Assembly (NCBI GenBank): GCA_016283355.1
Contig: JAEEMS010000025.1
Location: 1-64,000 of the forward strand
DNA length: 64,000 bases
Direction: 5' to 3'
DNA from: Elusimicrobiaceae bacterium
GTDB lineage: Bacteria; Elusimicrobiota; Elusimicrobia; Elusimicrobiales; Elusimicrobiaceae
Every line of letters begins with the position of its first letter. Positions within the stretch are counted from its first letter, which is position 1. The translations under genes and the position numbers were made by a program. The notes below the pieces were generated by a model. It had not been told where the DNA came from, searched no databases, and saw only the letters and a list, made by a program, of their open reading frames with translations. This document shows, one piece after another, positions 2,477 to 44,736 of the stretch.

Positions 2477-2547
2477 AGGAGAATAAAATGAAAAAAGTAG
2501 CATTATTATGTATGTGTGTGGGATTGGCTTTGCCGATGTTTGCACAA
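2477..2547 (+). repeat. 71-bp exact repeat, copy 1 (RBS plus signal peptide)
   Basis: The segment from AGGAGAATAAA through codon 20 of the gene at 2488 is identical to 3338-3408. Beyond it the two genes share only scattered residues. Confidence 0.9.
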
Positions 2548-3324
2548 CAGAAACTACAGATGAAAGAAAACATTAAACGCAAGCTTCCGCCGAGCACCAT
2601 TGCCACCGAAATGCCTGTTGGCGAAATGGGTAAGCGCATTTCACAAGGCGGAGAAATGCTTATGATGGTCGACAGATGGTTTAAAACAATAACGCTTGTT
2701 ACGTTTAACGCAGAAGGGGAAGAAATAATTATTGAAAATCCTGCTACCATGAAAGTATTCCTTGAGGGACAGTTGGAAAAAGATGGTCTCTATCTTAGAC
2801 AAATCGGTCCCGATGGCAATTATGCGTACACGAAATTGACTCCTGAAATGGTTAAGGCCTTACTCGTACCACTGATGCGGCCGCGGAAGGGATTCCCCCA
2901 GAAAAAAGCGTCGTTTGGATTTGATGTGTTTTCCTTGCTACTAGATGCGCGACTAAAAGATGAAAGCTGGTTTGAAAGGGTGATGACAGCGTCAGCGACG
3001 GACTTCTCTGAGCATTGGTCAGCAGCGCAGAAAGCCGCGTTGTATGCGGTTGCGGAAGGTGTGTTAACAGTCCAAAATGTTGATGCACAGGACCCTTTGT
3101 TTGCGTTCATGGAAGAGAAACTGGGAAATTACAGCAATTTAGACCTTGCCGATAAAGAAGAATTTTTAGCGGCGCTTGAAGTTTGCCAAGATATAACCCA
3201 AAAAACGATTCAGCAAAGAGAAAGAGAGTACGAAGAATTTGCTATCGAGGATGTGTTGACAGACATAGAAACTTTAAGAAAGGTATTAGAACATTTGGAA
3301 AACGTGGAAAAATCTTTCCAATAA
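2488..3324 (+). CDS. secreted protein of unknown function, family A copy 1
   Basis: This 278-residue protein has a clear signal peptide (MKKVALLCMCVGLALPMFAQ, cleavage expected after the Ala), so it is exported. I do not recognise the mature part. It is mostly helical-looking and charged, with one QKAALYA block (about residue 180) and a CQDIT segment near the C terminus, both echoed in the next gene. SD AAGGAG lies 9 nt before the ATG. The first 71 bp of the SD/signal-peptide region are identical to those of the gene at 3349, while the rest has diverged strongly. The gene probably forms an operon with 3349 (24-nt gap). A TATAGT/TATAAG box around 2438 could be its promoter. Confidence 0.85.
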   Translation: MKKVALLCMCVGLALPMFAQQKLQMKENIKRKLPPSTIATEMPVGEMGKRISQGGEMLMMVDRWFKTITLVTFNAEGEEIIIENPATMKVFLEGQLEKDGLYLRQIGPDGNYAYTKLTPEMVKALLVPLMRPRKGFPQKKASFGFDVFSLLLDARLKDESWFERVMTASATDFSEHWSAAQKAALYAVAEGVLTVQNVDAQDPLFAFMEEKLGNYSNLDLADKEEFLAALEVCQDITQKTIQQREREYEEFAIEDVLTDIETLRKVLEHLENVEKSFQ

Positions 3325-3337
3325 TACTAAAGACCTG

Positions 3338-3408
3338 AGGAGAATAAAATGAAAAAAGTAGCATTATTATGTATGTGTGTGGGATTGGCTTTGCCGATGT
3401 TTGCACAA
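3338..3408 (+). repeat. 71-bp exact repeat, copy 2 (RBS plus signal peptide)
   Basis: Identical to 2477-2547. It covers the SD, start codon and the whole 20-residue signal peptide of the gene at 3349. Confidence 0.9.
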
Positions 3409-4032
3409 GAGAAAACACAGTTAAAAGAACATCTAAAATCTCGGATTGAACACAAGCTAGAACAATACAAACAACCTGTATACGGCGAGCATAGAATAAT
3501 ACCGGACAATGCTGTGATTGAGTCCATTGTAATGGAAATGCCACCTATAAACGTCGAGCAAGCAACGAATCAATCCATAATGAAAGCAAAATGGATAACC
3601 AAAGGTGGTCCTCTGTCAATTCTTGCGAAAATGATAACGATTGATACATTGTTTGTTGGAAGAGATACGTCAGAAATATTGCCTGTTGCTAGAGATGTGT
3701 CAGAAAGGTTGCCTTTTATGATAGAAGAATTTGCACAATCGGAAGAGGTATTGCCTGTGCAAAAAGCTGCCTTGTATGCGTTCACGGAAGTACTGTTAAA
3801 TACTTTGGATCAATATAATTCCGACAATGAAAAAGATGAGGACAGAGAAGCTTATATACAAACCAAAAAAGATAGATTGAACGCTTTGAAAGAATCGTTG
3901 GAAGAGTATAAAGAAGTAGCCCCCGAAGAGAAAGAAGTATTTTCTCAAGCACTTGGAGTTTGCTTCTTAGAAATGGACGATGTCTTAAGGGGAATAATGT
4001 TTTCAATCCCAGATTGGAAAAAGATTCATTAA
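3349..4032 (+). CDS. secreted protein of unknown function, family A copy 2
   Basis: This 227-residue exported protein has the same 20-residue signal peptide as the preceding gene, encoded by identical DNA. The mature part aligns only loosely with copy 1: a short hydrophobic strand (SILAKMITIDTLF versus MVDRWFKTITLVTF), then QKAALYA, and a C-terminal LGVC block. It is rich in Glu and Lys with likely coiled-coil helices. No catalytic motif is recognised. It has SD GAGGAG and ends before a strong hairpin terminator. It is probably a duplicate of copy 1 kept similar only at its 5' end. Function unknown. Confidence 0.84.
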   Translation: MKKVALLCMCVGLALPMFAQEKTQLKEHLKSRIEHKLEQYKQPVYGEHRIIPDNAVIESIVMEMPPINVEQATNQSIMKAKWITKGGPLSILAKMITIDTLFVGRDTSEILPVARDVSERLPFMIEEFAQSEEVLPVQKAALYAFTEVLLNTLDQYNSDNEKDEDREAYIQTKKDRLNALKESLEEYKEVAPEEKEVFSQALGVCFLEMDDVLRGIMFSIPDWKKIH

Positions 4033-41185: not shown

Positions 41186-41245
41186 CCAAAAGGCCTAGAG
41201 GGGCCTAGGTCCAAATAACAATTTCAAATAGGCACAAAGGCCCTG
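41186..41245. repeat. CCAAAAGGCCTAG motif array, site e
   Basis: CCAAAAGGCCTAG (41186-41198), GGGCCTAGGTCC (41201-41212) and CACAAAGGCCCTG (41233-41245) form a cluster upstream of the secreted-protein genes. TAGGTCCAAATAACA is shared with site b upstream of the MarR gene. Confidence 0.6.
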
Positions 41246-41262: not shown

Positions 41263-41292
41263 TTTGTTACACTTTTAGGGTAATCCAATAAT
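41263..41292 (+). promoter_or_regulatory. putative promoter of the secreted mosaic cluster
   Basis: TTGTTA (41263-41268), 18-nt spacer, AATAAT (41287-41292), then AAAGGAG and the ATG at 41312. Confidence 0.4.
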
Positions 41293-41311: not shown

Positions 41312-42403
41312 ATGAAAAAAATGATGGTAGTACTGGTTGCTTTATTGTTTACGTTGCCCCTTTTGGCACAAGAAAGCAATACAGCCCAAGAGAAGGTAAA
41401 TAGGAAAGTCGCCCGATACCTAAAAGAAAATAGAGTAAAGGATCTTGCTACATACCTGCAATCATTGAAAACATGCCCCACAAAGGCGGTAAAGGTGGAA
41501 AATATTCCCAGTTTTTGTGTTGTCAACGCGTTTAGAAGAAACGGCCAAATTGCCGACAAAGATTTGAACGCTCGAATTGATCCTATTCATCTGCAAATTC
41601 AAGCGGGTGCTGGGAAGGAAGCGTATGCTGTAGTGGATAGAGTGTCCATTTTCAAAGCATTGGAATATGGGTTGAGAGAAAAATATAAAGCCCTCTATCA
41701 CACATCCTCGGTTGCGTTTAATAAGAACAATTATGTTGCGTTTTATAAAAATTATAAAAATACTTGGCTTAAAGATGATGTAAAGCAACTAATCAAACGG
41801 TATTGGACATGGTCTCAATTGCATACTTATGATGCCTTGGGAGCAGCAACCATGAATTTAATGATATTTGCCAGGGAAGCAAAGATTCCCGTAAAAGAAT
41901 TCATGGTAATCCCTGAGGAGGATATGATTTGTGATTCATTTATAAATGGAGCATGGAAAGTAGCTATCAAAGAAAATGCAAGAGACCTATTCCGTACTTT
42001 AAAATATCATACGATGATGTATTATTTTTCTGAAAAAACAGATATGTATGAAGGATCTCTCAATGTTATAATGCCCGACTATGAGCGTCGTTACTTCATG
42101 TTACCACTCATATTAATTGCGGGTCCGGACGGAACTATCCCAATGGATGTGAAACGAGGTGTTACGAGCGTGGTGCATCAATGTGAAGAACAAGTTCAAT
42201 CCTATCAGGAGTGTTCAGGTTATAACGAGGAAGAGATTGCCTACGCAAAGAGAGTATGTAAGAGATTGAAAGAAAGTGCCATTGAACACAAAGTGTATAT
42301 TAAAAACGCAGAAGAATTGCGCGCTGAGGCAAAAACAAAGGCACAGAAAAAATTTCAGAAAGAGGCAGAAACTCCGATAACCAGCAGACATATACATTTT
42401 TAA
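41312..42403 (+). CDS. secreted protein of unknown function, family B copy 1
   Basis: This 363-residue protein has signal peptide KKMMVVLVALLFTLPLLAQ, so it is exported. The mature part is helical and rich in Lys and Glu; the C-terminal half ends in a Lys/Glu/Ala helix (EELRAEAKTKAQKKFQ) and the motif SRHIHF. Cys appear in pairs (KTCPT, SFC, HQCEE, QECSG and RVCKR). No known family. It has SD AAAGGAG and leads a three-gene array with 42429 and 43546. It is nearly identical to copy 2 through much of the first 165 residues and diverges after that. Confidence 0.85.
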   Translation: MKKMMVVLVALLFTLPLLAQESNTAQEKVNRKVARYLKENRVKDLATYLQSLKTCPTKAVKVENIPSFCVVNAFRRNGQIADKDLNARIDPIHLQIQAGAGKEAYAVVDRVSIFKALEYGLREKYKALYHTSSVAFNKNNYVAFYKNYKNTWLKDDVKQLIKRYWTWSQLHTYDALGAATMNLMIFAREAKIPVKEFMVIPEEDMICDSFINGAWKVAIKENARDLFRTLKYHTMMYYFSEKTDMYEGSLNVIMPDYERRYFMLPLILIAGPDGTIPMDVKRGVTSVVHQCEEQVQSYQECSGYNEEEIAYAKRVCKRLKESAIEHKVYIKNAEELRAEAKTKAQKKFQKEAETPITSRHIHF

Positions 42404-42428
42404 CGGAGATTAATAGTAAGGAGAAAAT

Positions 42429-43520
42429 ATGAATGTACAAAAATCAATAATTGCACTCTTGGCATTGCTGTTTACGTTGCCCCTTTTGGCACAAGAAAGC
42501 AATACAGCCCAAGAAAAGGTAAATGGGATAGTTGCCCGATACCTGCAAGAAAATAAAGTCAATGAGCTTGCTACATACCTGCAATCATTGAAAACATGCC
42601 CCACGAAGGCGGTAAAAGTGGAAAATATTCCCAATTTTTGTGTCGTCAAAGCGTTTAGAAGAAACGGCCAAATTGCCGACAAAGATTTGAACGATCAAAT
42701 CGGTCCTATTCATCTGCAAATTCAAGCGGGTGCTGGGAAGGAAGCGTATGCTGTAGTGGATAGAGTGTCCATTTTCAAAGCATTGGAATATGGATTGAGA
42801 GAAAAATATAAAGCCCTCTATCACACATCCTCGGTTGCGTTCAATAAGGAAAATTATGTTGCGTTTTATAATAAATATAAAGATACATGGCTTAAAAATG
42901 ATGTAAAGCAACTAATCAAAAGCTACTGGGTGTGGCCTCAAAATCGAAATTTTGATGATTTGGGAGCAGCAACCATAAATTTAATGATATTTGCCAAGGA
43001 AGCAAAACTTCCCGTAAAAGAATTCATGGTAATCCCCAGAAGAGTTTCTAGGACCTTTATGGAAGGAGCATGGGACAGGGCTATCAAAGAAAATGAAAGA
43101 GAACTATTCCATACTTTAAAATATCATACGATGATGTATTATCTTTCCGAAAACGCAAAGATTGATGAAGGATCCGCCTATATTATAATGCCCGAATATG
43201 CATTACGTGGCGGGATGTTGTCATTCTTATTAATTGCGGGTCCGGGCGGGACTATCCCAATGGAAGTGAAACGAGGTGTTACGAACTTGGTGCATCAATG
43301 TGAAGAGCAAGTTCGAAAATATCAGAAGTGTCCAGGTTATCACAAGGAAGAGATTGCCGACGCAAAGAAAGTATGTGAGAAACTCAAAGCACAGGCCATT
43401 GAACACAAAGTGTATATTAAAAACGCAGAAGAATTGCGCACTGAGGCAAAAGCAAAGGCACAGAAAAAACTTCAGAAAGAGGCAGAAACTCCTATAATCA
43501 GCCGATATATACATTTCTAA
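42429..43520 (+). CDS. secreted protein of unknown function, family B copy 2
   Basis: This 363-residue exported protein has a mosaic sequence: the leader and first 11 codons (MNVQKSIIALL) match copy 3 at the DNA level, while the sequence from LLFTLPLLAQES onward matches copy 1. The C-terminal half follows copy 1 but with many substitutions and a different surface loop (PRRVSRTF). It ends SRYIHF. SD AAGGAG lies 25 nt after the copy 1 stop. Function unknown. Confidence 0.85.
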   Translation: MNVQKSIIALLALLFTLPLLAQESNTAQEKVNGIVARYLQENKVNELATYLQSLKTCPTKAVKVENIPNFCVVKAFRRNGQIADKDLNDQIGPIHLQIQAGAGKEAYAVVDRVSIFKALEYGLREKYKALYHTSSVAFNKENYVAFYNKYKDTWLKNDVKQLIKSYWVWPQNRNFDDLGAATINLMIFAKEAKLPVKEFMVIPRRVSRTFMEGAWDRAIKENERELFHTLKYHTMMYYLSENAKIDEGSAYIIMPEYALRGGMLSFLLIAGPGGTIPMEVKRGVTNLVHQCEEQVRKYQKCPGYHKEEIADAKKVCEKLKAQAIEHKVYIKNAEELRTEAKAKAQKKLQKEAETPIISRYIHF

Positions 43521-43545
43521 TGGAGATTAATAATAAGGAGAAAAT

Positions 43546-44661
43546 ATGAATGTACAAAAATCAATAATTGCACTCTTGGTTTTATTGTTTACCGTTCCCT
43601 TGTATGCCAGCGGTGTACAAAACCAAGTAAATCAAAAATCAGTAAACAAACAAGTGGCAACTTATCTTTCACAAGGGAAAATAGAAGCCCTGGCCACTTA
43701 CCTCGGTTCCTTTAAAAAATGTCCGTCGGATGAATCTGTTGTTGTGCTGAGCAGACTTCCTTCTGTGTGCGTCGAAGAAAAATTCAGCAGAAACGGACAA
43801 GAGAAAACAACCGGCTATCCGATAGTTGTAACGGACAAAAATAGAAGTGAGTCGGAATATACTGTAAGAACTATGAATGTGGTACGTCTTGATAAAGCTA
43901 TTGAGTATGGCCTAACTCAAAGGTATCAAGAACGGTTCAGAAGTAAACCGGGCGTTTTTAATAAGAAGAATTATGTTGATTTTTATAATACCTATAAAAA
44001 CACCTGGCTTGAAAGAGACGTCTTGCATGTAGAAAAAGATATTTGGGCTTATGAAAAATTGAAAAGTAGGCACAACTACTATACTGGCTACGACGAAGAT
44101 CTTGCGATTGTTATGTACAACTTGACGGATTTAGCCCTAGGGCTGAAGATGCGTATTGTGAATGTAGCTCCTGTGGAATGGTTATATGACAATTGGACCC
44201 CTGAAGAATTGAAGTATGTCAAGAACTATGCCGCTACCAAAGGAAAAGACGGAGTAAAAGTTTATGGGACCTTAAAGAGGACCATAAGAAATTATTACTT
44301 TGCGCGGGAAAGGATCCTTGTTTATGGAGATGATGAAGGAACGCTTGGACGTCAAGCCCGAGCTTTGGTGCGTATGCTATCGGCCTGGAAGTATGTAATA
44401 AATAAGTCCGATAAGTCCGTTCCGCAGAATATGAAACAAGATATTACCAACTCTATCCGTAGATGCTTTGAAATTGCGAAAGACAAGGAAAAGATAGAAA
44501 AGATAAAGAAGTACAATGGTTATGGTTTACCTATCGATATCTGTGTCGAATTACGCGGTCTTGCTTTTCAGGATAAAGTATATATTAAAAATGCGGAAGA
44601 ATTGCGCGAAGAGGCAAAAAACAAAGCAAGTACAATAGTCAGCCAACACATACATTTCTAA
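43546..44661 (+). CDS. secreted protein of unknown function, family B copy 3
   Basis: This 371-residue exported protein has signal peptide MNVQKSIIALLVLLFTVPLYAS. It is the most divergent of the three: conserved anchors are VATYLSQGKIEALATYLGSFKKCPS, the KNYVDFYNTYKNTWLERDV segment (quoted in part), and KVYIKNAEELREEAKNKAS with a final SQHIHF. The 34 nt after the start codon and the RBS region are identical to copy 2. It ends before a strong terminator. Confidence 0.85.
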   Translation: MNVQKSIIALLVLLFTVPLYASGVQNQVNQKSVNKQVATYLSQGKIEALATYLGSFKKCPSDESVVVLSRLPSVCVEEKFSRNGQEKTTGYPIVVTDKNRSESEYTVRTMNVVRLDKAIEYGLTQRYQERFRSKPGVFNKKNYVDFYNTYKNTWLERDVLHVEKDIWAYEKLKSRHNYYTGYDEDLAIVMYNLTDLALGLKMRIVNVAPVEWLYDNWTPEELKYVKNYAATKGKDGVKVYGTLKRTIRNYYFARERILVYGDDEGTLGRQARALVRMLSAWKYVINKSDKSVPQNMKQDITNSIRRCFEIAKDKEKIEKIKKYNGYGLPIDICVELRGLAFQDKVYIKNAEELREEAKNKASTIVSQHIHF

Positions 44662-44687
44662 TGGCGTCAATTGTCTAACAAACTGAT

Positions 44688-44716
44688 TAAAAGCCCCGCG
44701 TGTGCGGGGCTTTTTA
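44688..44716 (+). terminator. intrinsic terminator
   Basis: AAGCCCCGC-GTGT-GCGGGGCTT followed by TTT ends the three-gene secreted array and faces the PilZ gene. Confidence 0.88.
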
Positions 44717-44736
44717 ATTGCGAGAGATTTTTCTTT

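Follow-up and report, generated by a model that had tools for sequence, protein, structure and literature searches.

The middle gene of a three-gene tandem array in an Elusimicrobiaceae genome is a mosaic, with a single breakpoint near codon 11. We studied this array within a window of 64,000 nucleotides, the whole stretch of DNA that was analysed, which lies on contig 3 of a genome of 1.4 Mb that is split into 29 contigs. In the account that we consider probable, the middle gene arose as a chimera by unequal crossover, and the three genes form an operon for members of an exported, all-helical accessory family of gut and rumen Elusimicrobiaceae. The promoter class represented upstream of the array is the more general result.

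The array comprises three real genes:
41312..42403, + strand: copy 1 (c1), 363 aa, predicted exported on the basis of its open reading frame, signal peptide and family profile
42429..43520, + strand: copy 2 (c2), 363 aa, chimera with a c3 head and a c1 body and tail
43546..44661, + strand: copy 3 (c3), 371 aa, with a conserved KVYIKNAEELR..EAK and a S..IHF tail

The S..IHF end is common to all three proteins, and each starts with a Sec-type signal peptide, called by eye and with a crude, home-made rule, from which the proteins are predicted to be exported. No lipobox was seen in any of the three signal peptides. DNA identity is 86% between c1 and c2 and about 50% between c3 and either of them; at the protein level, c1 and c2 are 76% identical.

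A sequence-only reading had derived the ribosome-binding site (RBS) and first 11 codons of c2 from c3, and the rest of the gene from c1. In a three-way comparison with 484 informative sites, every one of the first 22 (spacer up to nt +33 of c2) groups c2 with c3, whereas the sites that follow group c2 with c1 in 421 cases and with c3 in 41 scattered ones. Alignment of the three genes for breakpoints, a check that the same reading had proposed, returned one breakpoint (permutation p<5e-5): none of 20,000 shuffles reached the observed walk, the largest attaining 8 compared to 22. After nt +33, the permutation test revealed no second recombinant tract in c2 (p=0.27). The origin of the head was thus borne out, as was the match of the body to c1; the near-identity claimed up to residue 165, however, amounts to only 93% in DNA, with 98% over codons 101–140. 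Recombination among the tandem copies likewise has good support, in the form of one crossover in the RBS and signal-peptide region and not of a repeated shuffling of antigen segments. The two copies of the head are:
42404..42461, + strand: spacer/RBS and first 33 nt of c2, from a c3-type head, with 2 mismatches in 58 nt to 43521–43578
43521..43578, + strand: spacer/RBS and first 33 nt of c3, the donor-type head in the three-way site comparison

The starting state would have been an ancestral pair, consisting of c1, a spacer and c3. The starts of c3 and c1, which code for signal peptides and are homologous around codons 11–17, would then have undergone one unequal crossover. It would have inserted a chimeric middle gene with the RBS and signal start of c3 and the body of c1, so that the chimera arose in a single step together with a second spacer and a second c1 tail. 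The two spacer and head copies differ at 2 of 58 nt where about 4 differences are expected (P about 0.2, calculated by hand), and since this is compatible with the 7% N-terminal divergence of c1 and c2, one event suffices. Against this account, a few synonymous sites just past the breakpoint (GCATTGCTG) match neither parent and are partly similar to d1, a family member on contig 1. After the crossover, point mutations would have set c1 and c2 apart, with amino-acid changes clustering in the C-terminal helical half, either through relaxed constraint or through selection favouring change. Because the nearest congener shares only 76–77% identity in MiaB, we infer the order and timing of these events. 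On this account, the array would be a clear example of tandem-array growth via one crossover in the signal-peptide region.

The C-terminal divergence between c1 and c2, which the sequence-only reading had noted together with their common end, is evident in the DNA identity, which is 81% over codons 166–330 and 92% in the last 35 codons. The segments concerned are:
41801..42295, + strand: fast-replacement segment of c1 (alignment codons 166–330, compared to c2), dN/dS about 1.15–1.7 versus about 0.4 elsewhere
42924..43412, + strand: counterpart of this segment in c2, from the codon-rate comparison

The dS between c1 and c2 is 0.135 before codon 165 and 0.20 after it, and a likelihood-ratio test (LRT) for a different synonymous time or kappa across this codon was not significant (p=0.59). 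In contrast, dN/dS changes from 0.40 in codons 14–165 to 1.15 in codons 166–330 and returns to 0.41 in the tail, and a codon-likelihood test for heterogeneity of dN/dS along the pair was highly significant (LRT 44.5, p=2.6e-11). A second breakpoint near residue 165 was rejected, as dS does not differ significantly across the boundary while dN/dS changes. The C-terminal divergence is amino-acid replacement, not mosaicism, and the array offers a case in which a crossover can be separated from amino-acid divergence that resembles mosaicism by eye. Omega over codons 166–330 was 1.35 with the segment fitted alone (p=0.37 against 1) and 1.5–1.7 in models with shared synonymous time (p=0.02–0.11 depending on the boundaries, which were picked post hoc from the data). 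These values, only borderline above 1, are no more than suggestive of diversifying selection on the segment, and since its boundaries came from the same data, we treat positive selection as unproven.

The array is flanked by miaA (−) on one side and by a PilZ-like gene followed by miaB (−) on the other; gene names were assigned from the appearance of the sequences, save where database or profile evidence is stated. The order miaB-pilZ-miaA is kept in the congeners examined, yet the gap between miaA and pilZ, which spans 3.6 kb in the window, measures only 0.1–1.0 kb in them (0.1–0.35 kb in eight, 0.7–1.0 kb in three). None of these 11 congeners has the array at this locus, so that it is a lineage-specific insertion between miaA and pilZ. 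Three congeners (L075, L079, L086) hold a single prepilin-like gene (GFTLIELLVVVLIIGILA) in its place, so that the spot takes different accessory genes. An Rfam search of the window yielded RNase P and two tRNAs only.

Upstream and downstream of the array, we identified the following putative transcription signals:
41204..41228, + strand: upstream half of a tandem promoter element (CCTAGGTCCAAATAACAATTTCAAA), score 10.2, on a par with the window's two best sites
41229..41243, + strand: core promoter motif TAGGCACAAAGGCCC, with 1 mismatch to TAGGYCHWWWGRMCC, 14.9 bits, 83 bp before the start of c1
41268..41273, + strand: predicted −10 element TACACT, 24 bp past the motif; most of 49 sites have TANNNT at the same offset of 23–24 bp
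44685..44719, + strand: intrinsic terminator, a GC-rich hairpin followed by a T run, −20.9 kcal/mol, z = −4.6

For the core motif, shuffled windows contain about 0–4 hits above 9 bits. It is found before c1 alone, with none before c2 or c3. The c1 motif is a weak, divergent member of its class, yet lies at the offset to the −10 element that is typical of the class. About 100 bp upstream of c1, with a palindromic element inside, are homologous to the promoter of d1. Because the motif occurs only before c1 and a terminator lies past c3, the array is probably one operon, in which a single promoter of the TAGGTCYWWWGRCCC class before c1 would transcribe all three genes up to this terminator.

Members of the TAGGTCYWWWGRCCC class lie 23–24 bp before the −10 element and often have a second half 22–25 bp upstream. 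The window contains three sites (2398, 14931(−), 41229), and TAGGYCHWWWGRMCC occurs 38 times genome-wide, compared to 2 occurrences of the reversed control. In the genome carrying the array, 35 of 41 sites lie 35–125 bp from the start of an open reading frame with a signal peptide, and in three congeners 20 of 21 sites adjoin such reading frames, compared to 3.8% of random window positions; both fractions are approximate, as the signal-peptide rule is crude and passes some non-secreted proteins. A tighter version of the motif recurs in nearly all genomes of the genus and across much of the family, whereas controls gave counts close to zero. Among the other genes of the protein family that start a transcription unit, nine of ten have a motif scoring >10 bits at 73–145 bp before their start. 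The class thus marks genes for secreted proteins across a poorly studied gut genus, making the secretome and its regulator directly searchable.

One of the other two sites in the window precedes a second tandem pair, which served as a comparison case outside the array:
2488..4032, + strand: second secreted tandem pair (2488–3324 and 3349–4032), with the promoter motif at 2398 upstream

Its two genes share 71 identical nucleotides (−11 to +60), a stretch that stops close to the site where the signal peptide is predicted to be cleaved; past this shared head their bodies are divergent, with near-saturated dS. Among 1226 starts of open reading frames in the analysed sequence of the same genome (G000), the pairs most discordant between head and body are tandem neighbours: the identities of head and body are 98% and 33% for the pair at 2488–4032, and 93% and 45% for c2 and c3. 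A third, weaker case (head 79%, body 44%) is a secreted pair at L104, on contig 3 near 71.7 kb. From these three cases, which are few, neighbouring secreted genes seem to exchange sequence preferentially in their signal-peptide segments. A more far-reaching interpretation posits a dedicated secretome regulon in gut Elusimicrobiaceae, marked by TAGGTCYWWWGRCCC and enlarged by recurrent crossovers in the RBS and signal-peptide region, which would equip new exported genes with an existing start, with the mature parts diverging partly under positive selection; as a whole, we consider it rather unlikely. At L119 and at 704–2284 of the window, a second 4-alpha-glucanotransferase-like open reading frame adjoins a secreted gene whose signal peptide resembles that of the gene at 2488, and these neighbourhoods suggest an old block duplication.

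Profile searches of the same genome added d1, d19, d25 and d27 to the family, along with a short member near C3:105 kb. d19 and d27 are dispersed paralogues (L016 1674–2765(−), L017 5339–6436(−)) with upstream DNA in common; their dS is 0.1 in the N-terminal part and 0.5 to saturated elsewhere, a patchy pattern resembling gene conversion. A profile scan of genome contigs with the array alone gave no match, and an alignment from the sister genus retrieved Elusimicrobiaceae metagenome-assembled genomes (MAGs). Overall, the family is present in only 7 of 341 Elusimicrobiota genomes, spanning two genera, and its named carriers are MAGs of Elusimicrobiaceae, mostly from rumen and including G030 from the same genus.

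Tandem pairs of family genes occur in G030, G083 and G086. At the locus of the latter two, G093 and G095 have one family gene each, with the same neighbours (porin-like and about 450 aa), so that the contents of this sister-genus locus are A+B, A+B, B only or A only. At this locus, A/A identity is 67%, B/B identity 50% and A/B identity about 40%; the A and B genes therefore predate the species, and these pairs are not homogenised. Copy number at this locus varies between species by loss or gain. An origin of the single G095 gene as a fusion of an A head to a B tail was unsupported, since the gene is A-like over most of its length and its tail holds too little signal. Just upstream of the tandem pair in G083 (L040 6765–8001(−)) are two open reading frames: one resembles a reverse transcriptase (YVDD, NAxxH) and looks retron-like by eye, and the other is small and helix-turn-helix-like.

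Conserved features of the family are cysteines and a FY..Y..T region. AlphaFold2 yielded helical models for two members (pLDDT 80 and 78), for which Foldseek found nothing significant (best E 0.03 in PDB and 0.06 in BFVD). The top matches, at E 0.03–0.1, were TPR-like proteins and designed helical repeats, and because none is a significant structural relative, we use 'solenoid' as a description and not as an assignment. Searches of Pfam, NCBIfam, PHROGs, PADLOC and PDB sequences gave no credible name for the family; a PADLOC match to Csm4 (E=8e-4) involved one of nine members over a partial stretch and was judged to be due to chance. Outside subscription journals, we found no literature on such a family or promoter motif in Elusimicrobiota. 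These searches and models point to an undescribed, unnamed family of helical, exported, accessory proteins, which the array has brought to light. A role in binding or interaction, as exported proteins of solenoid-like form, is a guess, and somewhat unlikely to be right.

The sequence-only reading had likened the array to surface-antigen families under diversifying selection. Spelled out, the copies would repeatedly exchange segments, and host immunity or phages would act on the divergent C-terminal part. Such a family would fit the tandem paralogues, the signal peptides and the real mosaic junction, as well as the omega of codons 166–330 in the shared-time models and the segmental dS of d19 and d27, which gene conversion would leave behind. 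Yet the array has one breakpoint only, with no synonymous-site boundary near residue 165, and a fit restricted to the segment does not place omega significantly above 1. Further, the array region contains no inverted repeats, no silent cassettes were seen, and of the traits bearing on surface exposure only signal peptides were predicted. On its sequence, the antigen reading is possible for this array but distinctly unlikely. Gene conversion could also have yielded the same single junction, through an initial duplication of c1 and a later replacement of the spacer and the opening 11 codons of c2 by c3 sequence, and the patches in d19 and d27 resemble its products. This path requires two events, however, where one crossover accounts together for the chimeric gene, the second spacer and the second tail, and we give it a similarly low probability.

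As the genome is in 29 contigs and the named relatives are MAGs, the array might have been assembled by wrongly joining strain variants. The copies differ by 14–50%, though, and the stretch common to c1 and c3 at the junction is only about 12 nt long, shorter than assembly k-mers. Since the same pattern also occurs in the unrelated pair of the window, and family tandem pairs in other assemblies, we regard an artefact as very improbable. Even less probable, to the point of being negligible, is that the C-terminal half was diversified by a diversity-generating retroelement through adenine-directed mutagenic retrohoming. The concentration of divergence in one segment would agree with such a mechanism, but it was rejected on the substitution spectrum: differences involving A make up 67% in the fast segment and 74% in the slow one, without an A-specific excess. 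Nor was a reverse transcriptase-like open reading frame or a template repeat seen near the array. The unequal crossover remains our preferred explanation.

Among known systems, the PFam54 (CspA) genes of Borrelia burgdorferi sensu lato form a group of 6–11 lipoprotein genes on plasmid lp54, of which CspA serves in complement evasion (PMC11389397). They share with the array the head-to-tail arrangement of exported paralogues, the lineage-specific duplication or loss and the divergence of members in one genome (PMC11389397). In contrast to PFam54, the array consists of three chromosomal, non-lipoprotein genes with one mapped crossover, and no match between the families was detected. The variable lipoproteins Vlp and Vsa of Mycoplasma are phase-variable via promoter repeats or site-specific inversion. 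They resemble the array in combining a conserved start (upstream region, RBS and signal peptide) with divergent mature parts, but differ from it in that the array region lacks inverted repeats. As in ordinary tandem arrays grown by unequal homologous crossover, the chimera lies at a stretch of homology and copy number varies between species; unlike in these, the junction falls within the RBS and signal-peptide segment, and a similar shared head recurs in another pair of the window.
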